Shown here in pieces: positions 4,141-62,220 of a stretch of DNA of 64,000 bases (within the stretch, counting starts at the first letter, position 1; every line of letters begins with the position of its first letter). The position numbers and the translations under genes are program-made. Under the pieces are notes generated by a model. The model was given only the letters and a program-made list of their open reading frames with translations. It had not been told where the DNA came from and did no database searches. This stretch comes from Brachypterus glaber (lineage: Eukaryota; Arthropoda; Insecta; Coleoptera; Kateretidae), in assembly GCA_958510825.1 (NCBI GenBank), contig OY294050.1:42669249-42733248 (forward strand), written 5' to 3'.

Positions 4141-4676
4141 CTTTTCAGATATATATTATTTTGTTTTTTTTTTACCAATTTTAAAGTCTTTGGTCCTCCA
4201 GATTTTTAGAAATTGTTATGGAACGCAAATCCAAAAGAAACTATTTAGAATATCTTATAAACAATAATAATTTGCTTTGAAAATTCTGAGGTGAAAATTT
4301 GTAAAAAAGTCCAAAATGATCAAAATTTGCGTTAAGTAATACTTGAACGTTCCCTATTAGGGTGCTTCTTAAAATTCAAAAATTCGAAATGTTAACGAGC
4401 TACCACCTCATTTTATTATTCCCTTTAAAAAAATTACCCAAATTTTGCCAAAATCGAACCATTCCTAGAGGTTGCTACCAGGAAAAAAAAGCATTTTTTT
4501 CTAAAATTCATATATTTTTTCTAAAATTATTGATTTTTATTATATATGGATCACGGTGGTAGGAAAATTTAAATTAACCCGTTTCTAAGGACAGAAATTT
4601 TTAATTTTAAACAAAATTATAAAAATATTAATTTATTATTCCATCAATCTATTTTCTAATCATCGTACTGAGTGAT

Positions 4677-4723
4677 ATTGGTAGACTGACAGTTTCGGGC
4701 TGCTGGCCCTCTTCAGTACCAAG
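4677..4723 (-). ncRNA. Type I hammerhead ribozyme, retrozyme monomer
   Basis: Same structure as at 14881-14927: stem I UUGGUA/UACCAA, core CUGAAGA, stem II GGGC-CAGCA-GCCC, GAAA, short stem III ACU/AGU with a 3 nt loop, cleavage after GUC. Confidence 0.88.
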
Positions 4724-5030
4724 AGTCAACTCTGCACGCTGATTAAGAAAACGTTTTTAGACTTTACTCGCAAAAGGAATATAGCCATTAGATTGATGTA
4801 GACTTGTGCGCCATCTATTTCTAGATGTAGACAACTACTCATACCTCTCCTTATCTGGAGACTTTGAATGGTAGCAAGTTGAAGACTTGTGTGTCTCAAG
4901 CACATAGTACCACTAACGGGTGGTTAGACGTAAAATTAGTAAGGACAGAAATTTTTAATTTTAAACAAAATTATAAAAATATTAATTTATTATTCCATCA
5001 ATCTATTTTCTAATCATCGTACTGAGTGAT

Positions 5031-5077
5031 ATTGGTAGACTGACAGTTTCGGGCTGCTGGCCCTCTTCAGTACCAAG
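5031..5077 (-). ncRNA. Type I hammerhead ribozyme, second monomer
   Basis: Identical in core and stems to the copy 354 bp upstream. Cleavage at both sites would release one 354 nt unit. Confidence 0.88.
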
Positions 5078-7514
5078 AGTCAACTCTGCACGCTGATTAA
5101 GAAAACGTTTTTAGACTTTACTCGCAAAAGGAATATAGCCATTAGATTGATGTAGACTTGTGCGCCATCTATTTCTAGATGTAGACAACTACTCACACCT
5201 CTCCTAATCTGGAGACTTTGAATGGTAGCAAGTTGAAGACTTGCTTGAGACACACAAGTCTTCAACTTGCTACCATTCAAAGTCTCCAGATTAGGAGAGG
5301 TATGAGTAGTTGTCTACATCTAGAAATAGATGACGCACAAGTCTACATCAATCTAATGGCTATATTCCTTTCCCGAAACTGTCAGTCTACCAATATCACT
5401 CTGTACGATGATTAGAAAATAGATTGATGGAATAATTAACCCATTTCTGTTTCTGTACGTCTATTCTATGAGACGTAACTTACGTCTCTGACGTCACGTA
5501 AGGATGATTTTAACCAAAAATAAAAAAAACTATCGAGCACTTTTTCTCATTAAGCAAAAACCCCGTATTAGGTTGCTTCTTAAAATTCGAAGTTTCGAAA
5601 TATTAACAGGCTATACCCTCATGTTATTAGTCCTTAAAAAATGCCTCGGGCCAAATTTTGTCAAAATCGAACCATTCCTAGGTCGCTATTAGCAAAAAAA
5701 AAACATTTTTTTTTGTAAAATCCATATATTTTTTATAAAATTATAATTTTTTTTATTATGTGGATAAATTTTGGCTTAAAATAGTCTAGGTTTATTGCTT
5801 AATAAAACTCAGGGTCATAAGCGGCATGGGGGGTCAAGTTGCCCATCCCCTAGGCATTAAAATATTAATTTGGTATAATTTTAACACATATTGGAGGAAT
5901 TTTTGAGCTGTAAATATTAAAAAGTTGTGTCAACATATAATTTTTATAATATCTCAGCTAGATATAGGTGGGAAGCAATAAAAAAAATATATTTAAAGGA
6001 AACCAACTTAAGAATTATAAGTGAAATCTTGCAAGGAAAGTAAGTTTTTTTACATAATTATAAAAAACTGATATTTCGATGCCTAGGGGGTGAGCCACAT
6101 GACCCCCATGCCACTTATGACCACAAATTTTATTAAGCAACTAACCTAGATTATTTTAAGTCAAAATTTATCCACATAATAAAAAAATTAATAATTTTAG
6201 AAAAAATATATATGAATTTTACAAAAAAATGCTTTTTTTTTTGCTAGTAGCGACCTAGGAATGGTTCGATTTCCTTACGTATGAAGTATGAGACGTAAGT
6301 TAGGCCTCATAGAATCGACGTACAGAAACAGAAATGGGTTTTCAAGTTGATTTAAATTATCCTACCACCGCACCGTGATTAATTTATCGTGTTTTTCTTA
6401 AAATATTGAAACATGCTTTAAATGAAATAACATAAAATAAAATCATAAATTATATACATAAATGAAAATTACTAAACCTATGACTTAGATAAAAAATATA
6501 GTATATTACATAACTAGTGTGGAAAGTGACATATTTCACGCGAGTGGGTTTACGACCGAGCCGCCAGGCGAGTGAGGAAACTCCACAAGTGTATGAAATA
6601 CACTTTCCAACGAGTTATGTAGGTACACTATTTTTCCTACGATCCCGAAAAAATATGAAGTTTCTTATTTAAAAATATTCTAATTTTTATTAATTTTTAA
6701 GAAGGGCAAAGCACAAAATCCTTATAAATAGCAGACAAATTTATATATGTAGGTTTGTCGAACAGGAAATATGATTTTCATTTAGCTTTAGTTTTCTTGG
6801 TTTTATATTTAATACAATACATAGCTGTTTAATAGGTTGCCTATTCCTAAATAAATCCAAACTTGAGTTTGCTTATTAAATTAGATTTATGTGGTTATGC
6901 TGCCATATAAGACAGTAAAATTTAACTGTTTTACATTTCGTAAGAAAAATACTGTGTATTTTTATGTTTTTTATGTAATGTAAGGTAACTGAATAAAAAA
7001 TTAAGTAATTTTTTTAAGATCTAAACTGTCTAGACTAGACAGTAATGGTTAACCATTAGTATCGTTATAACTATAGTCTCTATTTTTGACATGAAAAACA
7101 GAAATATTTGGATAAAAAAACTTAAAAAATATAAAAGCTGTGGTGAAAGGTGTAAATGGTTTATAAAACAAGGTGAATAAAATTCGTAGAATCTACGAGG
7201 TAAATATCTAAATAAAATTAGGCAAACCTCCATACATAAATATCACAAGAGTGTGATGAAAAAATATCAAACTAGTGCGATATGAGGCGTTTTCTAAAGA
7301 ACAAAAGAGTGTGCTAAATGTCATTTTTATAGAGGATCGTAGGAAAAGTACTATTAACATTACAATTATTCCTATCTATAAAATACATAATGTGGCTGTG
7401 GTTGGTGTAATACACAAAAAAATTAAAGTTTTTAAAATAAAAATATCAAATATCTAAAAGAAATTATTTTATTCGAATGTAATATCTAAATAAACTTTTA
7501 TTTTTGACAAAACA

Positions 7515-8800: not shown

Positions 8801-8905
8801 TTAAGTTCAAATGTCATCAATTAATAAATATCCAATCAACGTTGACTAGTTTATAAAGAACTTTCACTTTCGGGTTTAGACCATGTTAATGGATTTTCAC
8901 TTTCC

Positions 8906-8940
8906 GACGTTTCGTCTCTTACTACTAGAGACATCTTCAG
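8906..8940 (-). ncRNA. Hammerhead-like core in Penelope terminal region (minus strand)
   Basis: Minus strand reads CTGAAGA, an extra T, stem II GTCTC/GAGAC, then GAAACGTC. The core CUGANGA-stem-GAAA is that of hammerhead ribozymes known from Penelope-like elements; stem III would be the self-complementary ACGU, so activity would require a dimer. The extra base between core and stem II lowers confidence. Confidence 0.6.
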
Positions 8941-8983
8941 GGATTAATCTGAAACTAAGTTTCGAATCAACTTGTGTCACTAT

Positions 8984-9367
8984 TTATGACGAGTTGTGGT
9001 TATTCACCCGTGACGAGGTTTTTCCTATCAACGACTTCCATATTGCAGGTAAGTGGTAACCAGTGTCCCGATTAATATTGTTAGGATGCTTGATGATTTC
9101 TATCGATTCCCGTATCTTCCTTGGCATTTTTCTGTTTTCTGTTAATATTTGTTTTGTTTCAGACAAATTGATTTTATGACCTGTTTCATGTACATGTTCG
9201 GCTACTGCCGATAAGGAAATTTGTTTCTTTCTTATATTGCGCTCATGCTCTTGAAGACTTGTAGAAATTTTTCTCTTAGTTTCACCTATGTAAACCGTAC
9301 CACAGGAGCAAGGTATTTTATATACGCCTTCTGAACTCAGGGGTATTTTGTCTTTTGTTGAAGTCAA
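8984..9367 (-). pseudogene. GIY-YIG endonuclease domain of a Penelope-like element (partial)
   Basis: 127 codons. GVYKIPCSCGTVYIGETKRK matches the GIY-YIG signature of Penelope-like elements (G-x-Y, then VYIG, with the CxC typical of the family), followed by a basic helix region and a terminal WKSLIGKTSSRVN. The position that usually holds the catalytic arginine before LxEH is serine (STSLQEH), so this copy is probably inactive. It is only the C-terminal piece of the polyprotein. Confidence 0.82.
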
Positions 9368-9395
9368 ACATTGACCTAATTTTTGGTTGGACCGA

Positions 9396-9653
9396 CAACA
9401 ATATAAGAAAGAAACAAATTTCCTTATCGGCAGTAGCCGAACATGTACATGAAACAGGTCATAAAATCAATTTGTCTGAAACAAAACAAATATTAACAGA
9501 AAACAGAAAAATGCCAAGGAAGATACGGGAATCGATAGAAATCATCAAGCATCCTAACAATATCAATCGGGACAATGGTTACCACTTACCTGCAATATGG
9601 AAGTCGTTGATAGGAAAAACCTCGTCACGGGTGAATAACCACAACTCGTCATA
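9396..9653 (+). pseudogene. Second, shorter GIY-YIG tail copy
   Basis: Near-identical to the C-terminal two-thirds of the minus-strand copy (NIRKKQISLSAVAEHVHETG onward) but lacks the GIY-YIG catalytic part. It arose by the inverted-copy insertion described at 8854-9817. Confidence 0.85.
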
Positions 9654-9697
9654 AATAGTGACACAAGTTGATTCGAAACTTAGTTTCAGATTAATCC

Positions 9698-9732
9698 CTG
9701 AAGATGTCTCTAGTAGTAAGAGACGAAACGTC
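9698..9732 (+). ncRNA. Hammerhead-like core in Penelope terminal region (plus strand)
   Basis: Mirror copy of the motif at 8906-8940: CTGAAGA, GTCTC...GAGAC hairpin, GAAACGTC. Same reasoning and caveat. Confidence 0.6.
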
Positions 9733-10039
9733 GGAAAGTGAAAATCCATTAACACGGTCTAAACCCGAAAGTGAAAGTTCTTTATATCTTAATGGCCGTG
9801 AAAGCTTAAAATCTAAAGTTGACTAGTTTACTTATCGCCCTAGTGCGAAAAATTAAACTTTTCTTACAGATTTATTATACAAAAAATGGTGTTTTTAAAT
9901 ACAATCGAATAAAAAATTGATTTCAATGGTGCATTTATTTATAAAATAAGCACTTGTGAGCCAATAATAAACACAGCCTTATAAACTATTTTACTATTCC
10001 TTACAACTACTTTTGTTTTGATTAAAACAGTCGTCCAAA

Positions 10040-10094
10040 CCGAAGTGACTGATCGATTTCGTGCTTTTTAGCACTCTTCAGAACCACATATCGG
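10040..10094 (-). ncRNA. Type I hammerhead ribozyme, family 2
   Basis: Minus strand: CCGA, internal loop, GUGGUU (stem I 5' side), CUGAAGA core, stem II GUGC-UAAAAA-GCAC, GAAA, UCGAUC, then AGUCAC and UCGG completing stem I. The stem I halves pair over six positions (two G-U) plus CCGA/UCGG. Predicted cleavage falls between 10051 and 10050. Stem III AUCGAU is self-complementary with no loop, which predicts a dimeric ribozyme as in newt satellite RNA. Confidence 0.78.
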
Positions 10095-10490
10095 TAGTAG
10101 GGACAACTGTAAAAATCAAATCTTTTCCATATGCTATATGGAGTAGAAAAATAGTAAATTATTACAAATATATTTTTCTACATTTTTAAAATGTACCAAG
10201 TTTTTAATTAATTAATTAATTCTGATACCACAGTAAAGGTAATCTATAGCGTTTAGGATTCAATTGGCGGCAAATGTCCACCGTGGCATAAAATGCTGCC
10301 CCCTATCGACTGCGTGCAAGAGGTTCTTGAAACCTTATAAATTGCTTCCTTTTTGGGACTATCGTTAGGTTTTATCCAGTCTCTGTTTTTAGCAGAAGAT
10401 GTCGCTAACTGTTATTGCTTTTCCTTACAATTATTTTTCTACTCCATATAGCATATGGAAAAGATTTGATTTTCACAGTTGTCCTTATAC

Positions 10491-10546
10491 TGATATGTTG
10501 CTCTGAAGAGTGCTAAAAAGCACGAAATCGATCAGTCACTTTGGTT
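10491..10546 (+). ncRNA. Type I hammerhead ribozyme, family 2 (plus copy)
   Basis: CTGAAGA at 10503-10509, stem II GTGC/GCAC around TAAAAA, GAAA at 10524-10527, palindromic ATCGAT stem III, then AGTCAC. Stem I has diverged slightly from the minus copy but still pairs over most positions. Confidence 0.72.
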
Positions 10547-10841
10547 TGGACGACTGTGTTAATCAAAACAAAAGTAGTTGTAAGGAATAGTAAAATAGTA
10601 AATTATTACAAATATATTTTTCTACATTTTTAAAATGTACCAAGTTTTTTAATTAATTAATTATATTATGAAGGCTACCTAAAGTTAATATTGAGAACCA
10701 AACAAAATATGAAAGTTATATGAAACAAATCGATTCGATTTATCGATGAGAAGACTCGAATATGTCTTTATTAAAATTATAATCATACTAAACGAGCCCC
10801 ACATTAAAATCATAAATAGACACCTTGTAATAAGGCATTTA

Positions 10842-12009: not shown

Positions 12010-12145
12010 AGCAAAGACACTTTAATGCTAGAGACATCTTCAGGTATTAATAGCAGTAAGAGACGAAACGTCGGAAAGTGAAAATGTATTAGCAAAGAAA
12101 TTTAAAGTTCTTTATATCTTAGTGGCCATGAAAGCTTAAAATTTA
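12010..12145 (+). mobile_element. Penelope terminal remnant with rearranged hammerhead
   Basis: Shares GAGACGAAACGTCGGAAAG and the downstream 'AAGTTCTTTATATCTTAGTGGCC' type sequence with the element at 8854-9817. The 5' half of the ribozyme is present but inverted (CATCTTCAGG on the plus strand), so the motif is broken at its stem II loop. Confidence 0.65.
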
Positions 12146-12149
12146 AAAT

Positions 12150-14443: not shown

Positions 14444-14880
14444 TATGAATGGGTATCTTCTTTTGCTTGATAACGTGTATCTTCCAAACTAAGCAAGATA
14501 GAGACATGAATCAAAAACCAGAAGTTAAAGTACATCCTTTTATACATGGCTAAGTTTAATTCCAGTGCTCTAAAAATTCTCAAAAAATATGACAATTAAA
14601 AAAAATATTTAATCTCAATCTCAAAGAGCAACTCTCCAAAATAAAATACAAAAAGCAATCGAGCAATCAGTTCTAAGGCTATTTGACATCATACCTGGAC
14701 CAAGTTTTAAGTGGGCCATTTTCTGAGCTCAGAAAAATTATAACAGTTCGTATTACACTAAACTTACAAGTTGGGTGTAATAGGAACAGTTAGCTATACA
14801 ATGCAGTTATAAGTAATTATTTTTGTAATAACATATTTATTATTCCATCAATCTATTTTCTAATCATCGTACAGAGTGAT

Positions 14881-14927
14881 ATTGGTAGACTGACAGTTTC
14901 GGGCTCCTGGCCCTCTTCAGTACCAAG
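14881..14927 (-). ncRNA. Type I hammerhead ribozyme, monomer 1
   Basis: Minus strand from 14926: UUGGUA (stem I), CUGAAGA, stem II GGGC-CAGGA-GCCC, GAAA, stem III A-C-U/A-G-U closed by GUC, then UC with predicted cleavage between 14888 and 14887, followed by UACCAA, the perfect complement of the stem I 5' side. All invariant core positions are present. The stem II loop has one change from the other copies. Confidence 0.88.
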
Positions 14928-15234
14928 AGTCAACTCTGCACGCTGATTAAGAAAACGTTTTTAGACTTTACTCGCAAAAGGAATATAGCCATTAGATTGA
15001 TGTAGACTTGTGCGCCATCTATTTCTAGATGTAGACAACTACTCATACCTCTCCTAATCTGGAGACTTTGAATGGTAGCAAGTTGAAGACTTGTGTGTCT
15101 CAAGCACATAGTACCACTAACGGGTGGTTAGACGTAAAATTAGTAAGGACAGAAATTTTTAATTTTAAACAAAATTATAAAAATATTAATTTATTATTCC
15201 ATCAATCTATTTTCTAATCATCGTACAGAGTGAT

Positions 15235-15281
15235 ATTGGTAGACTGACAGTTTCGGGCTGCTGGCCCTCTTCAGTACCAAG
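15235..15281 (-). ncRNA. Type I hammerhead ribozyme, monomer 2
   Basis: Same as monomer 1, with stem II loop CAGCA; positioned exactly 354 bp on. Confidence 0.88.
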
Positions 15282-15588
15282 AGTCAACTCTGCACGCTGA
15301 TTAAGAAAACGTTTTTAGACTTTACTCGCAAAAGGAATATAGCCATTAGATTGATGTAGACTTGTGCGCCATCTATTTCTAGATGTAGACAACTACTCAT
15401 ACCTCTCCTAATCTGGAGACTTTGAATGGTAGCAAGTTGAAGACTTGTGTGTCTCAAGCACATAGTACCACTAACGGGTGGTTAGACGTAAAATTAGTAA
15501 GGACAGAAATTTTTAATTTTAAACAAAATTATAAAAATATTAATTTATTATTCCATCAATCTATTTTCTAATCATCGTACAGAGTGAT

Positions 15589-15635
15589 ATTGGTAGACTG
15601 ACAGTTTCGGGCTGCTGGCCCTCTTCAGTACCAAG
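15589..15635 (-). ncRNA. Type I hammerhead ribozyme, monomer 3
   Basis: Same core and stems. The fourth, partial copy at 15943-15966 stops inside GAAAC/GCCC and is not a complete ribozyme. Confidence 0.88.
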
Positions 15636-16185
15636 AGTCAACTCTGCACGCTGATTAAGAAAACGTTTTTAGACTTTACTCGCAAAAGGAATATAGCCAT
15701 TAGATTGATGTAGACTTGTGCGCCATCTATTTCTAGATGTAGACAACTACTCATACCTCTCCTAATCTGGAGACTTTGAATGGTAGCAAGTTGAAGACTT
15801 GTGTGTCTCAAGCACATAGTACCACTAACGGGTGGTTAGACGTAAAATTAGTAAGGACAGAAATTTTTAATTTTAAACAAAATTATAAAAATATTAATTT
15901 ATTATTCCATCAATCTATTTTCTAATCATCGTACAGAGTGATATTGGTAGACTGACAGTTTCGGGCTGTACGATGATTAGAAAATAGATTGATGGAATAA
16001 TAAATTAATATTTTTATAATTTTGTTTAAAATTAAAATTTCTGTCCTTTGTAATAACATATTGTTCTGATGGAAATTTTATTTAAAATTAATAAAAATAT
16101 ACGTTAATAATTTTGACAACGGTAGACGTCAACAGCAAGCTGGGAAGGTCTACGAGTGAGGAATAGTTATTCTACACCTGTTGCA

Positions 16186-16472
16186 GACTATACTTTTTCT
16201 ACGACTGAAGTTTTATACATTCATTTTTTTTTAATTACATAATAACCAAAAGTTTTAATAAAAAACAATAATTTACATCCAAATTTTGGATTTCGTTGAT
16301 TTTGCTAAAAATATGACACATATTCCTGTAAATGAAACCTATCACGGAATGTGCCATAAAACGTAATAGTTTTCATATACCGCAATAGGTTTCATCCGGT
16401 TACAGAATGTGCAATATACCGTAAGAGTTTTCTGTGCAATTTAACTAACAATCTAAGACAGTCGTAGAAAAA
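16186..16472. repeat. Short member of the GCAGTCGTAGAAAAA family
   Basis: Bounded by CTTTTTCTACGACTG and CAGTCGTAGAAAAA in opposite orientation; ~285 bp, no coding. Confidence 0.65.
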
Positions 16473-18599: not shown

Positions 18600-19745
18600 T
18601 TTATAAAAACTAACTTTATTTTGCTTTTCCATTTTGAAAATTTTCAAAATTTCGGAAATACACGAATACAAGGCATTCGTTTGGACTTTTTCAATTTTTT
18701 TTTTTCGAATTTTAGCGTTTTATGACGTTATATGTCGATATAAATCAATTTCAAGCAAAAAAAAAATTGTCGGTCGGTCGGTCTGTCCGGGAAATCTTGT
18801 AAGCACGATAACTTAAGAATGCTTTAAGCTAGAGCCTTGAATTTTGGCATACAGGTATGTTACCAAAAGTTCTTGCTCGGGATTGTTTTTGGTGAACATT
18901 GGCGTGCGCCAAGGGGGGCAAATGGGGGAAAAATACATTTTTTTAGAAAAAAATTAAAATTGCTATATAGAGGTTTTTAAGGTTGCTGAAATTGAATCTG
19001 ATGATAAAATTTCTCTAACTTCACTCCCGAGGGGGTGAGGGGGTAAATATTTTGAAATGTTTTCCGGATTTTCGTGAAAATTTGTAGATAGGGGTATTTG
19101 AGGTTGATAAAAATGAATCTTGAAATATATTTTTTGAAACCCACCCCCTTAGGGGTGGGGGTCATTTTTGTGAAAATTGGTATATTGACGTTTTTTAGGT
19201 TGCTGGAAATGAATCTGATAATAAAAATGGTGTAACTCTACCCCTACCCCCAGGGGTTGGGGGGTGATTTTGTGAAAGTTGGCATATAGGGGTTTTCAAA
19301 GTTGCTGAAACTAAATATGATAATAAAACACTGCTCAGTAAAAGAGCTTTCCCATTTTTCACCTCCGCGCGTGAAATTGATTTTTATTATCACATTTTTT
19401 TTCCTAATTTCACCCCTGAGGGGTGGGGAGTAGTTTTTGTGAAAACTGGAGTATTGGGGTTTTTGAGGTTGCTGAAAGTGAATCTGATAATAATAATATT
19501 CTAAATCCACCCCCTGAGGGGTGAGGGGTAGTTTTCATGAAAATTGGTATATTGGGGTTTTTGAGGTTGTTGAAAGGGAATCTGATTATAACAAAATTCT
19601 AACTTCACCCCCAAAGGGGCAGAGGGTAGTTTTCGTGAAAATTGGTATATTAAGGTTTTTATGGTTGCTGAAAGTGAATCTGATAATAAAAAAATCCATT
19701 TTACGCGCGGAGGTGTAAAATGGGAAAGCTCTTTTACTGGGCAGT
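18600..19745. repeat. Repeat family G with degenerate ~100-120 bp minisatellite
   Basis: A unique head (GGTCGGTCTGTCCGGGAAAT, AAGCACGATAACTTAAGAA) precedes six or seven units, each with GGTTGCTGAAA--GAATCTGATAATA and a CACCCCCTGAGGGGTG palindrome, at roughly 98-119 bp spacing with one larger gap. It ends near TGGGAAAGCTCTTTTACTGG. A second copy lies at 39400-40180. It stops about 60 bp from exon 16. Confidence 0.78.
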
Positions 19746-22900: not shown

Positions 22901-25900
22901 AACTACGAATTTAAATTTCTATGGTACACTTGTACCTGTATTGCACATCACCACTACAACTTCAAACTCGTTCGGGACAGCATACATTTGTTTAGGGATG
23001 ACACAAAATAATAAATAATAATTTGATATCAAAAATTGTTCACGACCAAGCCTTAAAATTTTAAATGACTGGTTACCCATAGAAGGGGCAAGTGTAACTG
23101 GTGGTCCTGGGGTAAGTGTAAATGCGTTTTTAAATAAATTGAGTATAAGTTTTTATAGGTTTTTTAGTTTAGTTTAGTATAGGTTTTCTTTTGTTTCAGA
23201 TTTTAAATTGAAGTTAAATGGTATTATCTACAAATAAGTTTATATCTTTTTTGCTATGAGAGATAAAAAAATGATTTTTTTTGGATGAAAGCTAAATTCT
23301 TGGACTATGTTACACTTAAGTCCATAACATACACCAAGTTTTATATCCCTGCGGCCAGCCGTGGTTACACTTGCCCCAAATGGCGGGGAAAGTGTAACCA
23401 CACGACATGGTAAAATATTTTTTTAGATTAAAAAATTGTGGTATAAAATTACTCAAAAACTTGCAACTACTGTTTTTCTAAACCCCCAGGTTACCTACAA
23501 AAAGATACGTACTGCCCTGCTGATGCTTATTTAGTCAAGGCTAATTTTTAAAAACGAACTATGCGTTTTTACACTTACGCCACTCCACCTTATGCTTAAA
23601 AGGAAAAAAATAAGTTTCCAAGGTCTTTAAAATTTTCACTTGTACAAAAATTACAGATTTTTTACGATTTGTGGATAATTTCACGAACTTTAGGGGCCCA
23701 GTTAGGACCGTTAGAGAAGTTTCAACACTCTCATATTTTCAGAATTTTCTAAATGAAAATTTTAAGATAATAAACAAATTTAAGTTTCACCCATCAAGTG
23801 ATAAAATTCAAAAAATAGTATTGCGGCACGGGTTAACGATATCGGATTGGGCTGAAATTTTGCAGGGTGAGTTTTCTCTTCATGTCGGAGGTAATAATAA
23901 TAATAATAATATCTTTATTGACGGATAATCCATTTAGAATTTACAAACATATAATCACTTAAAAACTAAATTTATAAATACAAGAATAAAAACTGTCTAA
24001 AAACTAAATATAATGAGACAGATACATATTAAAATAAACACAACAATAAACATAAATTAAAAGAGTTAAAATAAATAAAAAATTATATTTGACTAAGTTT
24101 TAAATTCACTTGTGTCTTAAACCTATCAAGAGTCAGTGAAAAATCCAAATCCAGATTATTTGCGATTCTACAAAGTCTATTAACTGGTGCATTTAACATA
24201 TAATTTGTCTTGCAATAGTTCACGTAAAAAGTTCGATTGTTATTGTTAATTCTAGTATTCCTTGCTGGAACCAAAAAATTTAAAAATGAAAAATGGACAA
24301 TCTATAATACCATTAATTAATTTGTATAGAAAAACCAAATCTAAGTAGATTCTTCGGTTTTCAAGCGTACTTATTTGAAAATAAATTCTTATAGAGTTAT
24401 GATTTGGAAGCATTAAACTCGATTTGAAATTTAAAAAATTTAAAAATCTGTTTTGTACCCTTTCAATTTTAAGCTTGTTTTCAATATAAAAAGGAGACCA
24501 AATTATCGAGGAAAACTCTAAATGCGAACGTACTATAGAGTAATATAAACTTTTAAGACAATTTACATTACTAAAGTCTTTTAAATTTCTTTTTAGAAAA
24601 CCCAAGAGTTTTAGTGATTTGTTTACCTGTAATTGTATGTGTTTGTCAAAACACATTTTGTTATCATAGGTAACTCCTAGATCTTTAATAACAGAAACAT
24701 TTTCAAGATCTACACCATTTATATTATAATTAAAATTAATGGGATTAATACTGCGATTAAAATGCATAGTTTTGCACTTATCTGCATTAAGACGCATGCC
24801 ATTAGCAACACACCATTCAAAAAGTTTGTCTAGAGCTTCCTGAAGTCGTAGACAATCAAGCAGACTTCTAATAATAAGATACATTTTCAAATCATCCGCG
24901 AACAATAAAAAGAATAAAAAGCCTAGATGTTTTTTTATGTCATTTATAAAAAAAATAAATAAAAATGTGGACAAGTGTCCCCCTTGTGGTAAGCCTAGAT
25001 ATCAAAAAAGGTAACTCCTAGATCTTTAATAACAGAAACATTTTCAAGATCTACACCATTTATATTATAATTAAAATTAATGGGATTAATACTGCGATTA
25101 AAATGCATAGTTTTGCACTTATCTGCATTAAGACGCATGCCATTAGCAACACACCATTCAAAAAGTTTGTCTAAAGCTTCCTGAAGTCGTAGACAATCAA
25201 GCAGACTTCTAATAATAAGATACATTTTCAAATCATCCGCGAACAATAAAAAGAATAAAAAGCCTAGATGTCTTTTTATGTCATTTATAAAAAAATTAAA
25301 TAAAAATGTGGACAAGTGTCCCCCTTGTGGTAAGCCTAGATATCAAAAAAGAAAAATAAAGGGCTCTTTTGGAACAGCCAATTGTATACTATACCTACTG
25401 TTAGTTACCTGATAAACAAGTGGATCCAGTTTTACCAGTGTTATCTCCCATCGTATCAGTAGTATTACTCGTAAACTCGAAAGCAGCGTCCCTTAGTGGC
25501 GGACTTTTCAAATTACTTGAAGAAAAAATATATATTATTTTAGATTATTATTTATTAGATATTAGACATTATTAGCTTGACAAAAGTGGCACGGGTGGTT
25601 TTAAAAATTTTCACCTAAAAGGTCTGGCAACTTCGATATATTTTTTTTATTATGACCCTAGTAGAAATTTAACGTTAGAATAACGTTTTTCTAATGTTAG
25701 AAAACTGTATAAAAGTACGTTATAAAATATGTGCAAATGTCCCGCTTTTTAACGTTCTATAGTTAGTTACAAACGAATCTAACGTTAGTTACAAACGTAA
25801 ATCTAACGTTAGATTTTTAAGTTAGAAATACGTTTCATTTCTAACTTTCGGAGGGGGCGTGGCCAACTAGGAAATTTCTACCTGCATCATAAAATGGCAG

Positions 25901-28900
25901 TTGGAGATAAATTTATTCATATAAATAAATCTTAATATATTTTAGCAATTGTAATAATTTTAAACATAATTTCGTTACATTTATCTAAATATTTTAGGGT
26001 AATATCCTGTTATACTTCGATAAATACGTTTACCTCTCAGAAAAACCTTATATTTAGTTGGTTAATATTTATTTATACATTCAGAATCTTAAAATATTTT
26101 TTCAATTATAGTACAGCGTTGCCAGACTTACTATAATTTTGACTTTTGGGGATATATTTTTAAACTTATTATAGAAATAATAAATAATTATCAAACCTAG
26201 GCACATAGCTGTCTGAAATGAGTATTTTCTACTATAGCTTACGTATTAATAATGGAAATTTAAAAAATATTTGAAGTTAGAATAAGATTAGAAAAAGGTT
26301 AGAATTTAGTTACGAAACTAACGTTAGATTTATGTATTTTATAACGTTTTTATCAAACGTTAGTTTTTAAGGTTAGATTTATATATTTTATAACGTTTTT
26401 GTCAAAGGTTAGTTTTTAAGGTTAGATTTATATATTTTATAAAGTTTTTGTATAACGTTTGAGACTAAACATAAAAATGTCATTAATCTAATGTTATGTT
26501 AAGTTAGATTTATCTACTTTTCTACCAGGGGATTCTCTGGTGTATTTTACGCATTCTGTGTAAAAATTAAAAAAATCGTTAGATGGCTTTTTTGCATCAT
26601 CGTCTTAAACTTAACACTTTTACCAAGGAGCAGTTATTCATCTTTGACCTAATAAAAACTTCCTTACAGATTTTGATCGGCTGAATCCATATCTGTTCTT
26701 AAAATTTGGTTACATTGTCTAGTTTTTGCGAAATATTATATTTTATATTCAGGAAGTTGAAATTTTGCCCAAGGGAGTCCATAATTTTGGACCGGCAAAG
26801 TGTTTTAATACTTTTATCAAATACATACAGATAATAAGACAATTACCAGCTTTATTTTAAATAGATAAACTCAATAATAACCCCCGTGTGGCTTTTACTT
26901 TATTCAGGCCTATTCACACGTACCATTGATATTGAGATTTGTGGCAATATTGACGAAAATTGCAAGGTCATGTATTAAAACTGCATGGGATTGTAATTTT
27001 TGTCAATATTGAATAGATTTCAATGGTACATGTGAATAGGCCTGAATGAGTGGATAATTATTTATTTTACCCACTCAACTGTCACTTGTCAAATTATTTT
27101 CTTGTAAATGTCATTAAAATTTTTAATAAAAATATGAATTCCTAAGCTATTTATTGGATAAAACCTTGTATGGCACTCATGGGTAAACCGATATTGCCCT
27201 CTCGAAAATTAACCTGCTTGGCTGAAAAAGTCCAAACGAGGCGTCAGCCAAGCAGGTTAATTTTCTCATGGGCAATATCTTACTTTACCCACTAGTACCA
27301 TAAATAACTATTTCGGCCTGTATGAATGAGTCGTATATTTAAGTTTATAGGTATAAACCATAAAATGATCTAAGGTTTTATTTCAACTACGGCAAAATTC
27401 ATTTTCTAAGTACCTAGGTACTTAGGTACCTGTATTGGCTTTAAATTAGCCAAAACAAAAGTTACTGTGCATGTCATGATTGACAACATATTTTTGGCAT
27501 GCTAATTATTATATACCAAGGTAGAGAAGACATTTTTTATAGCCGTGCGTCTTAAATTCCGAGCTGCGTAGCAGCAACGAGGGTATAATAATCACCCGAA
27601 TTATTAATAGCTAGCAAACGCGAGTAGAATACTATACTTTATCCACGGCCGTTTTAAAGTGTTTATTTTTACAGACCCGTGATTAAAAGGCCTATTAATA
27701 ACGGCCGTGGATAAAATTAATTAATTATAAAAATTGATTAATTAAAAAAAGTGGCCATTAGGGTGGGTCAAAAAAAACCGATCATTTTTTTTTAACTTTA
27801 TACTCTGAAAAATCGGTTGGTAGACACCTCTAGAAAATTCTCACCAAATATGAGCTCTTAACTTTGATAAAAAGGTTCTCCGCTTTACAATTTTCCATTT
27901 TTTTCTCAGTATTAGAAACAAAAATTCATATCTGTTTGACAACTGTTCGTTAAAAAGTATCTCTCCTGATATTCTTGTAGGAAATCGAACGCTCTACAAA
28001 AAAGGTATCTTACAATTTTTTCGTAAACCTCACCGTTTAAAGATATCAAAGGTTAAAGTTTGATTATTTTAAAAGACATTTCTGTTTTGATTATGAATTT
28101 TATAACTCGCTTACAAAAAATTGTTATGAATTGCGCAATTCATAGTTTTATAGGAAATTAACTGCTCTACAAAAATGGTCTCTTATGATTTGTCGATTAA
28201 ATTAAGCGTTTAAGAGATATTCATCGTCAAACTTCAATGCATACTAATTTTAATAGTTTTTGATGAATAATTCGAAAAATTTCAATTTAATTCGAAAGGT
28301 AAACTTCTATAAGAGTTACTCTTACGAAAGAAACTCAAATATGTATAAATTTTCGTGAAACTCATAAATTAAATTGAAATTTTTCGAATTATTCATCAAA
28401 AACTATTAAAATTAGTAAGCATTGAAGTGTGACGATGAATATCTTTTAAACGCTTAATTTAATCGACAAATCATAAGAGACCATTTTTGTAGAGCAGTTA
28501 ATTTCCTACAAAACTATGAATTGCGTAATTCATAACAATTTTTTGTAAGCGAGTTATAAAATTCAAAAGCAAAACAGAAATGTTCGATTTCCTACAAGAA
28601 TATGAGGAGAGATACTTTTTAACGAACAGTTGTCAAAGAGATATGAATTTTTGTTTCTAATACTGAGGAAAAAATGGAAAATTGTAAAGCGGAGAACCTT
28701 TTTATCAAAATTAAGAGCTCATATTTGGTGAGAATTTTCTAGTGGTGTCTAGCAACCGATTTTTCAGAGAAGTAAAAAAAAAAATAGTCGGTTTTTTTGA
28801 CCCACCCTAGTGGCCATAGCAGAGTAAAGCGACGTTTAATGAATAAAACAAAGTATTAAATTTTCAGAATTTAGTGACTTGTGAAAGAAAGGTGGCTTTA

Positions 28901-37900: not shown

Positions 37901-40900
37901 CCTAAATAAGTCATCAATTTAAATGTAAGTTTTTTAAAATTTTAGAGCAAAATAGAAAAAATTGTATATATTCGTTTCATAACACGTTTTTAGCGCACTA
38001 GTACTTTAGAAAACTCACCGCAAGCGGCTCGTTTTCTAAACTTGTACTCGTGCGCTAAAAACGTATGTTATGAAACTAGTACTTTAATATACTATTAAGT
38101 AATTAAAAAAAAATACTTCGCGAAAATTTATTTTTTTTTGTGTTTCAAGTGACTCACTATGCAATAACAGCGTTGACATGAAAATCCAGTTAGTAAAATA
38201 CAGGGTGTTCCGTATCGTTATTTTCAAATTTTGTGAGTATGTAGTAGACTTAATTCTAAGACAAAAAAAAACACAAAAGTGGTAGGTAGGTCGATTTTTA
38301 TTCTTTCCGAAGTTACAGTCCTATCCAATTATTAACAATAAATAATAAGATTTAAATTTGAGAACCACATAAAAACTTATACAGGGTGTAACAGAGTCGC
38401 ATGTAGATATTTTAAGGAATGATTCTACATTAAAAAATATGAAAAAAAGTTCCTATAAAGGTTGGTCCGGAAATGAGTCCTAAGGGAGCTACGGCTCTTC
38501 GAAGATGACATATGGGAATGGGAAACAAAAAAAAAAGCATCAATAAAATTTTAATGCTGCAGGGTGATTCTTCATTTAAAACTAAGCAAAAAAGTATTCT
38601 TCACCAAAACACCTAAATTTAATATTAAATGGCCTTTTAAAAAGTAACGTTTTTGGTGGCACAAAATGTTCTTCCTCGTAATTGCATTTTTTTTTATAAC
38701 GGTTGCTCCTACAGTGTTACACTATATGACATTTTTTATGTATTTTTACTGAAGGAATCTATATTTTTTACAAAAAATACAAAAAACATAAACATAAAAA
38801 AGTTTGGGGCAAAAATGTGTTAAGCCTCACATATTTTGTCCGTCTAGGCACGCCTCTGGATGAATTCAAAAAATTAATTAACACAAACTTATTGCCCTTA
38901 TTAATACTAGTATACGTGCAAAAGCTCGTCGCTCTAGCTGAAAGGGTACCAGAGTTATTAAATAAAAACTTCATTTTTATTACAATTTTAAAGGGCCGTA
39001 GCTCCCTTAGGGCTCATTTTCGAACCAACCTTTATAGGAACTTTTTTTCATATTTTTTAATGTAGAATCATTCCTTAAAATATCTACATGCGACTCTGTT
39101 ACATCCTGTATAGGAATGTTTTGTACATAGCTATGGCCATGCTATGTCAATTTCACTAGAAAAAACGTCAGTCAGATATTTTGGAATAAATACAACTGAA
39201 ATTCACACTTTCTATTTATTCCAAAATAATTTTATATGACTGACCCCCATTCCGGACGCCACTGGTTAAAGTAACTACATGCAAATACCCTTATTAGGGA
39301 TAGATCACATGCAAAACCTTGTCACTCTATCTCAAAGGGTTCCTGAGTTATTTAATAAAAATTAAACTTTTAAAACCCCTTTTGAAGGGGCGTAGCTACC
39401 TTACGAGTCGTTTTTCTTTCCCATTTTGAAAATGTTCAAAATTTCGGAAAGCCTTGTATTCGTGCAAAAAATTTCAATTTTTTTTGTGTATTTTTGCGTT
39501 TTATGAAGTTTTATGTCGATATAAATCAATTTCGAGCAAAAAAAAATTGTCGATCGGTCGGTCGGTCGGTCGACCGGTCTGTCCGGGAAATCTTGTGGGC
39601 ACGATAACTTAAGAACGCTTTAAGCTAAAGACTTGAAATTCGGCATACAGGTATGTTACCAAAAGTTCTCGCTCGGGATTATTTTTGGTAAACATTGGGG
39701 TGCGGCAAGGGGGCAATTGGGGGAAAAATACATTTTTTTTGTAGAAAAATTTGAAAATTGCTATATATGGGTTTTTGAGGTTGCTGAAATTGAATCTGAT
39801 AAAAAAACTTTTCTAATTCCACCCCCGAGGGGTGAGGGGGTAAATATTTTTCAATATTATTAATATTTTCTTCAAAATTGGTATATAGGGGTTTTTGGGG
39901 TCGACGAATATGAATCTGATAATACTTTTTTTTCTAATTTCACCCCCTGAGGGGTGGGGGTAGTTTTCGTGAAAACTGGTGTATTGGGGTTTTTTGAGGT
40001 TGTTAAAAGTGAATTTGATAATAAAATTTTTCTAAATCCACCCCCTGAGGAGTTGGGGGTAGTTTTCGTTAAAATTGTTATATTGGGGTTTTTGAGGTTG
40101 TTGAAACTGAATCTGACTATAAAAAAATCCATTTTACGGGCGGATGTGAAAAATGGGAAAGCTCTTTTACTGGGCAGTGTATTTGACATATGTTACAGGC
40201 ACTTTTTTTCTTATTTTGACCTCAAAAACACATCCTGTAAATATTCCCCTTTCCTCGCGTAATAATTTTGTAATTTATAATTATAGTGTATTCAACTCCA
40301 AGATGCAGTAGTAATAAACAAACGCACGTGATTACAACTGATTTAGTGACAGGGTAGGACTCAAAGCAAAATATTTCTATGACGGTCCATTGCAATGCAT
40401 TGTACGATACACTAAAAGTGCTCACGTACCTGTTTAATTTTCTACATCCCTACTCTCGCAACATTCGAGTGTTTTAACCAATAAAATGACACGCCCGCTG
40501 CCGCCTGCGCGATTCTCTTGTTTCCATCCACTGCACCTTGGACTTGAATTTACTATAATAAACTCTAATTCTAATTACCTTATACCACCGAATACTTGGA
40601 ATTGGAAGTCCAGACACATTACATGGCAATACAACAAAATCGTCTAAATTTACAGTTTTATTTTTAATATTGGTTAATATTTTAGGACCAATAGGATCTG
40701 AAATATTATTAGGAATTAAATAGATTTTATAATGTATAATTCGGTGTGATTTAAGGCATATTCACCCAAAGGAACCGGATCCGGATTTTAGCAATATAGC
40801 CGGGAGCAAATAATGTAATAAAAATGGTCACCAGCTCTCCGACTATTATGTTAACGATTCACTCACCGCAGTAATGGGAAGAATCCAGCGCATGCCCACT

Positions 40901-50800: not shown

Positions 50801-53800
50801 TTCTAAGGTCAGATTCGGATTCTACCCCCTCGAATTAGTAAGAAAAATTTACTTTCCGATCGGGGCAAAAAAAAAGTTGCGATTTGTTGCCTAGTGTAAT
50901 TATTCACTGGGTCTAAACATTGCACGATAGGCCTTAAAAAAATTAAATTAAAAATTAAGCACCCAATTTTTTTATTGGATGGATTTTTTAGTACAGAGTC
51001 TACAGAGTAAAACAAAGCCAAAATTAAAATAGTTGTAGCATTTTTTGAAAAAAAAAAATGTTTTATATTTTTTTAGGGCATGCTAAATTTTTATTGGTAA
51101 TATAGAAATAATTTATTTTTATAAAAAAAATAAATAAAAACAATTGAAAATCGATTTTCTCAAAAACTGCTATAAGCATCATTTTAATTTTGCCTTTGTT
51201 TTACTTAGTAGACTCTCTAATGCAAAAAACATTCAATAACAAAAATGGGGTGCTTGATTTTGAATTAATTTTTTTTAAGAACTTCCGTGATTGTTTATTG
51301 CAATAAATCCTTTAGGAGATCTACCCTGGTAGAAAAGTACACAAATCTAACTTAACATAACATTAGATTAGTGACATTTTTATATTTAGTCTCAAACGTT
51401 ATACAAAAACGTTATAAAATATATAAATCTAAGCTTAAAAACTAACGTTTGACAAAAACGTTATAAAATATATAAATCTAACTTTAAAAACTAACGTTTG
51501 ATAAAAACGTTATAAAATAAATAAATCGAACGTTAGTTTCTCAACTAAATTCTAACCTTTTTCTAACCTTATTATAACTTTAAATATTTTTAAATTTCCA
51601 TTATTATTACGTAAGCTATAGTAGAAAATACTTATTTCAGACAGCTATGTGCCTAGGTTTGATAATTATTTATTAATTCTATAATAAGCTTAAAAAAATA
51701 TCCCCAGAAAGTGAAGGTCTGGCAACGCTTTATTAGAATTTAAAAAAATATTTTAAGATTCTGAATGTATAAATAAATATTAACTAACTAAATACACAGT
51801 TTTTCTGAGAGGTAAACGTATTTATCGAAGTATAACAGGATATTACACGAAAAATATTTAGGGCCACCTAAAAAGATGGCTATTTAATAAATAAATGTAA
51901 CGAAATTATGTTTAAAAATATTATGATTGCTAAAATATATTAAGATTTATTTATATGAATAAATTTGTCTCCAGCTGCCATTTTATGATTGAAATTTCCT
52001 AGTTGGCCACGCCCCCTCCGAAAGTTAAAAATTAAACGTACTCATAACGTCTTAACTTAAATATCTAACGTTAGATTAACGTTTGTAACTAACGTTTGAC
52101 TCTAACTTTAAAAAGCGGGACATTTGCACATATTTTATAACGTACTTTTATACAGTTTTCTAACGTTAGAAAAATGTTATTCTAACGTTAAATTTATACT
52201 AGGGTAGTCTCTTACCTGTTATATTTAAATAAACAACTTGCTTCACATTGTCTTTTCCGTTATTTGCTTCAATTGTATAATTACCATAATCTTCAATACC
52301 AACTGTTTCTAGTCTAAGTACCGATTCTTTTTTTAAATTTACTAACTTATATTTTGATGAATTCATAGCAATCCTTTCATTTTTGTTATTAAACCTATAA
52401 ACACAAATATTTAATTAAAAAGTATTTTTTATTGGTTACTACTATAGTTTAAAAATCGTTAGCCGTTTTTGAAAAAATGTGTTTTTTAGAAAATATCTCT
52501 GATTTTTTACGCTAACATACTCGGTTTGTCCTCGATGTCTCGGATTTTGACCAAACTTGGCATAGGGGTACCACTATGGTACCTAAGCACTCCATCTAAT
52601 TTTTTTTTCAAAACGGTCCATCCGTTCACTATACTGGGTGTCCCACCAAGTTCTTGAAATAGCTTATGTCCGTTATTTGAAAAGGTATTAAAATTTGCAA
52701 AAAATAGCATTAAATCAAAGCCAAAGAAGATTTTACTGACTTATTCAAAACCGCCCCTTGCTTACCTACTCCCTTAAAACTACCCCCAACTTCTGTTTTT
52801 CAAATAGCCCCCCTAATTCCTAATAAAGACTATGAAAGTGCACTTTATTCTGAATTCAACCATTTATTATAAGTGGTATCTTAGAGTTTAAGGGGCTCTA
52901 AATAACAATTATTATTTATTAATAGAAGGGTGGTATTTGAAACAAAATTGCGGGTAGTTCCAGGAGACTGGGTTGTTATGAGTTGGTTTTAAATATATTA
53001 ATCAATTTTCCTTTGGGTACAATTTAACGTAAGTTTTTGGAAAATTTTCTGGTTAAATTTAAAATGAAATGTGCTTTTATATTCTTTAGTAAAATAGGGA
53101 AGTGCTATTTAAAAAACTAGTTGGAGGTGGTTCCAAGAGGGTGGGTTAATAAGGGGTAGTTTTGCATATGTCAATAAATTCTACTTTGACTCCAATTTAA
53201 TTTAATTTTTTTTTTAACTTTTTTATATTTTTAAATAACGGAGATATAGCCCGTCTAAAACCTGGTGGGACATTATTATTATTACTAAATAATAATTGTT
53301 ATTGGAAGCCCCTTAAAAGAATAAGATACTATTTATAATGGTTTAATTCAAAATAAAATGTAATTTCATATTATTAGATAAAAATGGGCGTGGGAGGTGT
53401 TATTTGAAAATCGGAGGGTGGGGTGGTTACAAGGGAGTGAGTAAGCAATGGAGGGGGGATTGAATAAGTCAATAAAATACTTTTTGGCTCCCATTTAACG
53501 CTATTTTTTACAAAATAAATTACCTTTTCAACGGAGATGTAACTTGTCAAGAACCTGGTTGGTGGGACACCCGGTATCGTGAACGGATGGACCGTTTTGA
53601 AAAAAAAAATGGATGGAGTGCTTAGGTACCATAGTGGTACCACTATGCCAAGTTTGGTCAAAATCCGAGATATCGAGGGCAAACCGAGTATGTACCTATG
53701 CGTGAAATATCAGAGATATTTTCTAAAAAACACATTTTTTTCAAAAACGGCTCTAACGATTTTTAAAATTTTGTTCTTATTTTTTTAATTTAAGCTCATA

Positions 53801-56800: not shown

Positions 56801-59800
56801 ACGTGACATCACCCCCTCATTTTGCATGCCCCTGTTTAAAATTACCAAATAAAAATTACATATAATGATAACCTTTATTAATATTAAGGCATGTACAAAA
56901 ACTCTATATTGTGGATTTTAAGCTTTCACGGCCATTAAGATATAAAGAACTTTCACTTTCGGGTTTAGACCGTGTTAATGGAAAGTGAAAATCCATTAAC
57001 ACGGTCTAAACCCGAAAGTGAAAGTTCTTTATACTCTATATTGTGGTTTATAGGGTTTCCGAGATATTAAATAAAAACTACTTTTCAGATGTACCCTTAG
57101 GAGGGTCGTAGCTCCCTTAGGGCTCATTTTCGGACCAACCTTTATAGGGTCTATTTTTCATATTTTCGGACCTAGAATCGCCCCTTAAAATTTTGTAACT
57201 TATTTCTGAATCACCCTGAATTAAGGTGGAAGCGTAAAATACTTTTTTTTTAGATGAATAGTAACCGTCCAAAATATTCTTCTTTGGGATCCCCTAAAAT
57301 GCTCCTAAAAATTTAGAATTGAAAAAAGGTCAATAACCAGTGCCGACTTGATCTTAAAGTTTTAAAAATTAGAAATGTTTTAAAATTTTGGTACGTTAAA
57401 AAATCAAGTTTTGAAAAAAAGCTCGCTGATTAAAAATCTGCGTTTAATATTATAATTAATTATACAAAATGGCGAAACCAATATGGCAGACATAAATATC
57501 AATATTTTGATTAAATTTTGCGAAAATTTGATACGGGGGTTTTCGAGATCGCTAATTACAAATCTAACGTCAAATTTATGTTTACTGTACGGCGGACCGA
57601 ACAGGGTGGAAAAAATATTAAATTTTTATTCTATTTCACAAAAATTGGTATACGGTCGGTCGCTGATTACATATCTAAATTAAAAACTTTTTAAGTAACA
57701 AAATTTTGATTGTTTCTCAAAAATTAGTATACAGGGGTTTTCCGAAAACCGTTTTCGAGGTAGCTGATTACAAATCTAAAATGAACAATATTTTTTAGAA
57801 TATGGCTTATCCAATGTGGCTGACATAAATATCTATTTTTTCCTATTTTTTTTTTTTAAATGTTGTACCTTAAGTCTCCATGTTACAAAGAGAGCAGCCA
57901 TACTGTCGGCCACAAGACTTGATGCCACATCGCTTGAATAAAAAATCGTCTTTTACCGCTGGCACTCAAACCCTCCCTTTTAGCCAGACGTATTGTAAAT
58001 GGCTAGGGGTCTTTACAGCGCAGTCCATTACCGCGAAACCGTTACCGCGACACCGTTACCGCTCAAGGACTTTACCGCGCATGGACTTTACTGCGAAAAC
58101 CATTACCCCGCTTAATTATTTTAATTTTTTTTTTGAAAAAAAAAGGTTAAATAAAAAAGTATATATTTTGCAGAAAACAATAAAACAGTTCTAAATGATA
58201 TACCTGCTGGGTCAGGGTTGTGGCCATTACTAGTTTCCTTTAAAACAAAAAGGTTAAATAAAAAAGTATATATTTTGCAGAAAACAATAAAACAGTTCTA
58301 AATGATATACCTGCTGGGTCAGGGTTGTGGCCATTACTAGTTTCCTTTAAAACATTTCCGTCCAAAGTATGCAAACGCCCCTTGCAACAAAGCAAGTCGT
58401 AATTTACGCACTTACAATTTTTTTATTTTTAAGAGTATTTTAATTCCTGTATATGAAATGTTTATATACAGCGAGGTCTTTGCCCCTAGCACTTTTTATT
58501 ATTTCGATCGACATGACGATTCTTACTAAACTGATTATTAATCAGCGATTTATACAAATCAGTCGATATACATTTAAAAAACACACCCATAAAAAACCTA
58601 AACACAGATATATGGGTACATTTAGTAAACGTTCCACTATATCAATAAAAATCCAAACCAAAACCAAAACTAACCAAACCAAACTGCCATCAATCCCACG
58701 GAAATACCCATACAAAAAATAAAAATAATGTATAACGATTTTTGCTGTAAAAGTCATACGCGGTAAAGACCGTTCGCGGTAATGAACTACGCGGTAATGG
58801 TCTTCGCGGTAAAGGGCATGAGCGGTAATGGCTTCTCGAGGTAATGGCGATCGAGGTAATGCACTGCGCGGTAATGGTCTTCGCGGTTGTTTTTTAGCTG
58901 TAAAGTCCGGCTCCCATTGTAAATGTATATCGAATGATAGTCTTGGAGACTTTCTATGCAAAATCATTTCTGTTTTGAGGAGGGACATATAGAGACGTCT
59001 GTGGATTTAGGCGTGGATGTTTCGAGTACTTTGCTTTGAAGGGATTAAAATCTGGACGAAAGATTTGCTCTCGGTAATTTTTCAAGCTAGGTCTCCGCAA
59101 AGAAAGAGTCTGGCTTAAAGGATTTATTAAATATTGTACAGTTTTAATGTATACAGAACTATTCCTTACCAAAGTTTATTTTTTTAAGGTATAGTTATTT
59201 TAAATTTGCCGCTAATCCACAAAGTCCGATTTACACTGAAGCATGTGGCTTGTTTTGAATGTCAACATAACCAAAATTTATAATTTTTGTTTACTTACTT
59301 TGTTTTTATGATGTTTTGATGTAAAAAAAGAGAATTGATAAAGCTGTTGCTAAAAACACTTTTGTATTCCTGTAGAAACAAAATTTGCTTATAAAATCGC
59401 TTTTATTCCAATAATATAGAGGAATAAACCATTGTTCTGTTCTCGTTAATGACACGTCAACGTTTTACGGTTGTGTAAATTGGGCCTAGTCATTTCGCTT
59501 ACGACGCATGCGTATCTTACGTTGCTATGGTAATTTCGAGATTGTTTACAAGCGGGAAGGTTTAAAATAACTATACCTTAAAAAAATAAACTTTAGTAGA
59601 AGGTATTATACCCGGCCGTTGGCTGTTTGGAGGGTATTTAAAACTTAGTAATAAAAAAGTAGAATGTCTTTTATCCCATCGATTGTATTAATACTTACTA
59701 TATATTTTTATGTCTGTTGTATTACTACTGTTATGGTTTTGTTTATCAAAAACTTCGCACCTGTATTGGCCACTATCTTTACTTGTTGCATTTTTGATAA

Positions 59801-61905: not shown

Positions 61906-62220
61906 AGTAATTTTTACTTATAGTATATAAAATAATGACAAATAATCTTAAATTAAATAGTTAATATAGGTTAAATAATTAGGTTAAACTTATGTAGGGT
62001 CTTAGCTTATTTACTAACAGCTTAAACAGCTGGTGGCCTAGGCCAATATGCACTCTTTTACAAAATCCTTAATACCCCTGAAAAAAAAGGTTGTAGACAT
62101 ATTTAGAAAATATCAAATGGTTAAGAATAAAACGTTCTATAAAAATAAGTAGTAATAAGACTTTACAAAAATAATTTTTGCGAAAACGATACATACAAAA
62201 TACTCGCGCTTATTTCGGTG

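Follow-up and report, generated by a model that had tools for sequence, protein, structure and literature searches.

Paired insertion ends of a 354-nt hammerhead retrozyme in the beetle Brachypterus glaber resemble those of a resident Penelope-like element

In the genome of Brachypterus glaber, we found a dispersed repeat with a 354-nt unit and a hammerhead ribozyme, and we interpret it as a non-autonomous, non-coding animal retrozyme inserted by Penelope-type machinery, a reading to which we assign a probability of roughly 0.77. It was met in a stretch of 64,000 nt (the window, by which we mean the whole stretch analysed). The main evidence is the way in which the insertions end. Positions in the unit are numbered in the sense direction from u1, the first base after the hammerhead cut. 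We sampled 29 retrozyme insertions flanked by a target duplication; in 26 of them, one end was at u46–55 and the other at u94–99 (here called the proximal and distal start sites), and the RNA 3' side faced outward at either end. No insertion among the 29 used one site twice. A Penelope-like element (PLE) resident in the same genome pairs its ends by the same rule.

The larger of the two retrozyme insertions in the window, insertion A, has three complete units and a partial fourth, arranged head-to-tail at a spacing of 354 bp with 99–100% identity. Its features are as follows.

14838–16046, minus strand: retrozyme insertion A, with a long left arm of 3.2 units in minus sense and a short inverted right arm
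14822–14837, no strand: target duplication of A, left copy, 16 bp
16047–16062, no strand: target duplication of A, right copy, 16 bp
14838–14887, minus strand: left terminal stretch of A, from the hammerhead cut to the proximal start site (u1–u50)
About 15966–16046, plus strand: inverted right arm of A, whose end is the distal start site (u95)
14882–14926, minus strand: hammerhead 1 of A, cleavage site 14887/14888
15236–15280, minus strand: hammerhead 2 of A, cleavage site 15241/15242
15590–15634, minus strand: hammerhead 3 of A, cleavage site 15595/15596

A sequence-only reading of this DNA had described 354-bp monomers with a minus-strand type I hammerhead, and the three complete units each carry one with an intact core (CUGAAGA...GAA), a C at the cut, a 6-bp stem I (UUGGUA/UACCAA) and a 4-bp stem II (GGGC/GCCC). 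Stem III was read as ACU/AGU, i.e., 3 bp with a 3-nt loop, and an automated greedy count gave 4 bp with a 1-nt loop. The same reading had reported a perfect 16-bp target duplication, which is present on both sides (TTTGTAATAACATATT), and had proposed that a multimer was inserted as one block, which is supported for A. The inverted partial copy with which it had the array end also exists, but it forms the second arm of a two-armed insertion and is no stray terminus, and the outer ends of both arms lie at fixed RNA positions, a layout also seen in the resident PLE. The unit is non-coding. It has no reverse transcriptase or endonuclease frame, the longest stop-to-stop frame in a four-fold unit being 65 codons, and no LTR, primer-binding site or polypurine tract was recognized in the unit on reading it through.

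The hammerhead call rests on a stem-and-core descriptor, because Rfam gave no match. The covariance-model check that had been suggested for the hammerhead region returned no hammerhead, either in the whole window at the gathering score or in 14600–16300 up to E 10; the miRNA-like Rfam matches at 14600–16300 lie on the inverted repeat and were rejected. The descriptor found six sites in the 64-kb window (five in the 354-bp family and one in a 444-bp family) and 0 sites in 60 simulated 64-kb sequences with equal first-order base statistics. Stem I may also have a distal helix, of at most 9 bp and with an internal loop, in which array B has one mismatch (see below). For the 80-nt ribozyme region in isolation, the fold of lowest computed energy differs from the hammerhead, part of the core being paired with the cleavage-site strand (−32.0 kcal/mol for the lowest-energy fold vs −21.7 for the imposed hammerhead pairing). 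When the sense unit was folded as a closed circle, it was more stable than 60 of 60 shuffles (z −4.9). The hammerhead was not more conserved than the rest of the unit (11 of 1,280 vs 74 of 8,556 positions changed, in unselected laps), and no selection on it within copies was seen in this lap comparison. A circular RNA of 354 nt, as had been proposed, is a fair inference from the published retrozyme family (PMC7229834).

For the genome-wide distribution, 648,179,424 bases (648 Mb) in 842 contigs were scanned with a hammerhead pattern of 35 places, three of them free. This pattern had 3,170 exact matches (1,616 forward and 1,554 reverse), and its backward control had zero in the genome. A DNA search with the entire 354-nt unit, by a method that passes over very frequent words, returned no match. 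The first 100 matches listed formed 65 dispersed clusters over about 14 Mb of one contig, with 1–5 exact hammerheads each; within the same 100, the spacing of same-strand hammerheads was 354 in 19 of 24 cases. All 11 clusters of mixed orientation among the matches listed ran minus-then-plus. The retrozyme is a dispersed family and not a local satellite. The second insertion in the window, array B, belongs to the same family as A.

4587–5433, minus strand: retrozyme insertion B, left end at the distal site (u97) and right end at the proximal site (u46)
4572–4586, no strand: target duplication of B, left copy, 15 bp with 1 mismatch
5434–5448, no strand: target duplication of B, right copy
4678–4722, minus strand: hammerhead 1 of B, found by the descriptor
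5032–5076, minus strand: hammerhead 2 of B, found by the descriptor

Insertion ends were determined in 53 of the 65 listed clusters (45 first, and 8 later with shorter flanks) and in the two window arrays, all loci having been chosen by the hammerhead. In the counts, a low-complexity duplication fragment (L034) is excluded from the 28 insertions with a duplication; L038 consists of two clusters with identical ends, of which the first, with a duplication, is counted in the 28 and both in the 37 and 27 given here. The first 45 loci and the window arrays comprised 51 segment clusters, in 37 of which the RNA 3' side was outward at both ends. Both ends lay in the site windows in 27 of these 37 two-armed insertions, and all 27 were mixed (14 distal/proximal and 13 proximal/distal). 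The remaining 10 had at least one end outside the two windows, and no same-site pair of ends occurred among the 37. A target duplication was present in 25 of the 37, vs 3 of 444 when flanks were paired across different insertions, and was lacking by the criterion used in 12. When short and one-armed insertions were included, the first 45 loci and the window gave 28 insertions with a duplication, 25 of which paired u46–55 with u94–99; the later eight clusters gave one duplication, in L118, whose ends are u52 and u95. Among the other later clusters (L116, L117 and L119–L123) there was no duplication by the criterion used, the ends of L119 were mixed, and L117 had a tail-to-tail junction. The duplications of the 29 sampled insertions were 12–16 bp long, most commonly 13.

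The two window arrays were the source of the idea of paired ends; when they were left out, the pairing was followed in 24 of 27 insertions, and with independent and equal use of the sites, the probability of 24 mixed pairs in 24 would be 6e-8. Two of the exceptions, L039 and L068, keep the distal end at its usual site and have shifted proximal ends, at about u37–40 and u25, respectively; the third, L048, has one arm only, ending at u97. The two arms usually stop at different inner positions, and their junctions often share a few bases. In arms with at least three laps, four variants were present in all laps, four in some and 25 in one; the all-lap variants were also found in the other arm in four of four cases, array B being a counter-example by eye. 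Microhomology between primer and RNA averaged 2.26 nt vs 0.76 nt after shuffling, which is partly an effect of the choice of duplication boundary. A hairpin between the two start sites was considered and rejected, since in three families its stability did not exceed that of shuffled sequences (z +0.94, +1.05 and +0.49).

The resident PLE is represented in the window by two insertions.

8854–9817, no strand: PLE insertion whose two arms face opposite ways and both include GIY-YIG coding sequence, terminating 52 and 85 nt beyond the cut
8841–8853, no strand: target duplication of this insertion, left copy, 13 bp
9818–9830, no strand: target duplication of this insertion, right copy
56915–57032, no strand: short PLE insertion, only two short arms in opposite orientation, terminating 80 and 53 nt beyond the cut
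56901–56914 and 57033–57046, no strand: target duplication of the short insertion, 14 bp

The arms of 8854–9817 are 99% identical over 388 nt, and a hammerhead core was found there by regular expression, with a minimal stem III (stems by eye). Homologues of its coding sequence include beetle and bee proteins as well as members of PF01541 (GIY-YIG). We take the PLE frames to be GIY-YIG from these PF01541 homologues and from the characteristic motif; a Pfam search of the two PLE fragments in the window returned no domain. An older PLE 3' fragment lies at 12022–12147 (82% identity over 107 nt); it reaches the distal site on the right, and no target duplication was found around it.

A 26-nt motif just before the PLE proximal site matched the genome exactly at 4,903 places. 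The first 100 of these listed included 33 pairs of neighbours within 2.5 kb, which were minus-plus in 31 cases, plus-plus in one, minus-minus in one and plus-minus in none. We examined 30 of the 31 minus-plus pairs (the 20 shortest and 10 longer ones) together with the two window insertions, 32 in all. A duplication was found in 28 of the 32 (12–16 bp in 25 of these), and in all 28 an end at p49–57, in PLE numbering, was paired with one at p75–88. In total, 31 of the 32 were mixed, three of the four without a duplication being mixed by presence of the tail, i.e., the stretch between the two sites. The exception, L094, carries the tail at either end, and the bases that follow it are also identical at the two ends, as if it were part of a larger palindrome. 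By ungapped extension, in which some inner ends only mark where the extension stopped, 11 of 44 PLE arms ended at p−49/−50; these stops, 49–50 nt before the cut, perhaps reflect a fixed 5' end of the templates, as at a transcription start.

Matches to PLE proteins are abundant in this genome: 141 of 4,888 candidates were scored, and open frames among those scored reached 971 aa. One locus (L124) has an 818-aa ORF that starts inside the hammerhead, with the cut 29 nt into the ORF and the two start sites at about ORF +83 and +114; Pfam reported only RVT_1 in this frame, and a search by sequence matched no solved structure for the PLE protein. The distal site is about 11 nt farther from the cut in the retrozyme than in the PLE (typically u96 vs p85), and the start-site regions of the retrozyme and the studied PLE showed no clear sequence likeness, so the studied PLE family may not be the helper of the retrozyme.

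The window also contains a second hammerhead family with a repeat spacing of about 444 bp.

9985–10664, no strand: second hammerhead family, with an inverted left arm and a right unit

By eye, the two ends of this copy lie at different places, about 66 and 131 nt beyond the cut, and no target duplication was found at 9985–10664. In a two-sequence search, the 444-bp and 354-bp families were 63% identical over about 118 aligned columns around the hammerhead (E 0.014). Stem III is minimal and self-complementary, by eye, in both the resident PLE and the 444-bp family. Other repeats in the window were a 49-bp tandem repeat that occurs twice in opposite orientation (26319–26459 and 51395–51535), two arrays of 98-bp period with a similar unit (19413–19695 and 39866–40124), a 421-bp tandem repeat of 4.3 copies up to the window end (62200–63999), and a 341-bp stretch tandemly duplicated within a reverse-transcriptase reading frame (24668–25351).

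Because the retrozyme and the resident PLE share the end-pairing rule, and because a lizard PLE primes on both target strands, we infer that the retrozyme is inserted by PLE-type machinery through priming at two paired sites. The repeats would be transcribed in minus sense, the hammerhead would cut the RNA into units, and these may close into circles. A PLE protein with reverse transcriptase and GIY-YIG endonuclease would cut the two target strands with an offset of about 13 nt, so that 3' overhangs remain. Both target 3' ends would then prime on retrozyme RNA, in one case at the proximal site (about 50 nt 3' of the hammerhead cut) and in the other at the distal site (about 96 nt 3' of it). 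The two cDNA arms would extend 5'-ward, at times for more than one lap, and then join, often sharing a few bases, and the overhangs would become the target duplications. Paired two-site priming would explain the outward 3' sides, the two fixed ends, their mixed pairing, the duplications and the inverted partial copy of A. More generally, we consider it slightly better than an even bet that PLE integration is two-handed and asymmetric by rule, in that the complex opens both strands and each starts on a different fixed RNA site 3' of the hammerhead, and that animal retrozymes are parasites reduced to this two-site cassette and a hammerhead, here on a 354-nt RNA.

Arms longer than one unit imply a template that is either a circle or a multimer. 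It is a serious possibility, although we place it somewhat below even, that the template is an uncleaved linear multimer, with cleavage and circles irrelevant to insertion. The lizard PLE does not need hammerhead cleavage in vitro (PMC11167929), and arms of up to about 1.7 kb run over the cut position; against this, such crossing is partly built into a sample chosen by the hammerhead, 4 of 44 PLE arms end at p1–p3, i.e., 1–3 nt past the cut, and animal retrozymes are described as accumulating as monomer circles in available parts of the published account (PMC7229834).

A different origin of the head-to-head arms, self-priming of cDNA on an antisense template instead of priming on both target strands, was proposed for bdelloid Penelope, where available parts of the report explain the inverted PLE layout with junction palindromes in this way (PMC3846280), and some PLE junctions in our sample do carry short extra repeats (L084 and L085). 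Self-priming gives no reason, however, for a second, different fixed end beside the duplication, as seen in 26 of the 29 retrozyme insertions and in all 28 PLE insertions with a duplication, and the arms usually stop at different inner positions. We therefore regard it as unlikely. Twin priming is known for L1. Ordinary twin priming by a LINE-type element could be considered for the retrozyme, LINEs being kept as candidates beside PLEs in the parts of the published account at hand (PMC7229834); it is nevertheless very unlikely, since both retrozyme ends are fixed and paired, without a poly(A) end, and the resident PLE pairs its ends likewise. Ordinary satellite DNA spread by recombination, for which the head-to-tail units and the hammerhead satellites known in cave crickets (PMC2837043, in part) might speak, is highly improbable, being contradicted by the target duplications as well as by the fixed ends and the 65 dispersed clusters among the first 100 matches listed. 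The sequence-only reading had itself named ordinary satellite copies without target duplications as evidence against a retrozyme, and we found duplications in 28 of the 51 segment clusters.

The retrozyme type itself is already known, and what is new here is the mode of insertion. The enzyme that moves animal retrozymes has so far been argued from co-occurrence with PLEs and from the shared ribozyme type; the insertion scars link retrozyme and PLE within one genome, and a PLE is the probable helper of this retrozyme parasite. The one-site-per-side rule is a sharp, testable prediction for Penelope-type integration, and under it the "optional" PLE tail becomes a regular trace left by one of the two priming events. 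In titles and the openings of abstracts, with few subscription journals covered, we found no report of paired-site retrozyme insertion.

Among known systems, plant LTR retrozymes are also non-coding hammerhead retroelements, but available parts of their descriptions give type III hammerheads in LTRs and 4-bp duplications, whereas the present hammerhead is type I and the duplications are 12–16 bp (PMC4918200, PMC7229834). The pDo500 repeat of Dolichopoda cave crickets likewise has a hammerhead in each unit of an insect repeat; unlike the retrozyme, it is described, in the part of the report at hand, as satellite DNA whose hammerhead is more conserved than the rest (PMC2837043).

Canonical PLEs and the present elements have in common the hammerhead, the inverted arms, a pair of neighbouring start sites separated by a tail, short target duplications and AT-rich targets. 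Small hammerhead variants of PLEs reportedly cleave as dimers, according to work by Lunse et al. in 2017; the resident PLE and the 444-bp family resemble these in their minimal stem III, whereas the 354-nt family has a 3-bp hairpin stem III. With the lizard PLE PAc, both target strands were cut and extended in vitro, and synthesis started at two adjacent internal sites, most often 111–118 bp into the ORF, with the hammerhead cut 26 bp into the ORF; the stretch between the start sites is the known "tail," and the start site was alike on both strands in vitro (Frangieh et al., PMC11167929). In available parts of Arkhipova et al., the tail is optional at one of the inverted pLTRs and the head-to-head layout arises through self-priming (PMC3846280), whereas here the tail is on exactly one side of each insertion in nearly all sampled cases. 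The footprint of the retrozyme insertions appears to carry the features of Penelope-type insertion, namely two adjacent start sites, priming of both strands and a tail. The retrozyme is not an autonomous PLE, however, its 354-nt unit having neither the reverse transcriptase nor the endonuclease frame of canonical PLEs.

The closest relatives are the non-LTR metazoan retrozymes defined by Cervera and de la Pena in 2020, for which PLEs were named as strong candidate mobilisers (PMC7229834), a candidacy repeated in a review (PMC7761336, in part). In available parts of their description, these have a type I hammerhead, an AT-rich tandem unit of 150–450 bp, thousands of copies, no LTR and target duplications of more than 4 bp, all as here, and insects are among the named hosts (PMC7229834). 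The sequence of the unit and of its ribozyme is specific to the present genome, and the two-armed layout with two fixed, differing ends sets the present family apart from those parts of the description. The retrozyme architecture and the animal type I hammerhead class proposed at the outset are supported, and on every feature that can be judged from sequence the family is best filed as a non-LTR animal retrozyme.
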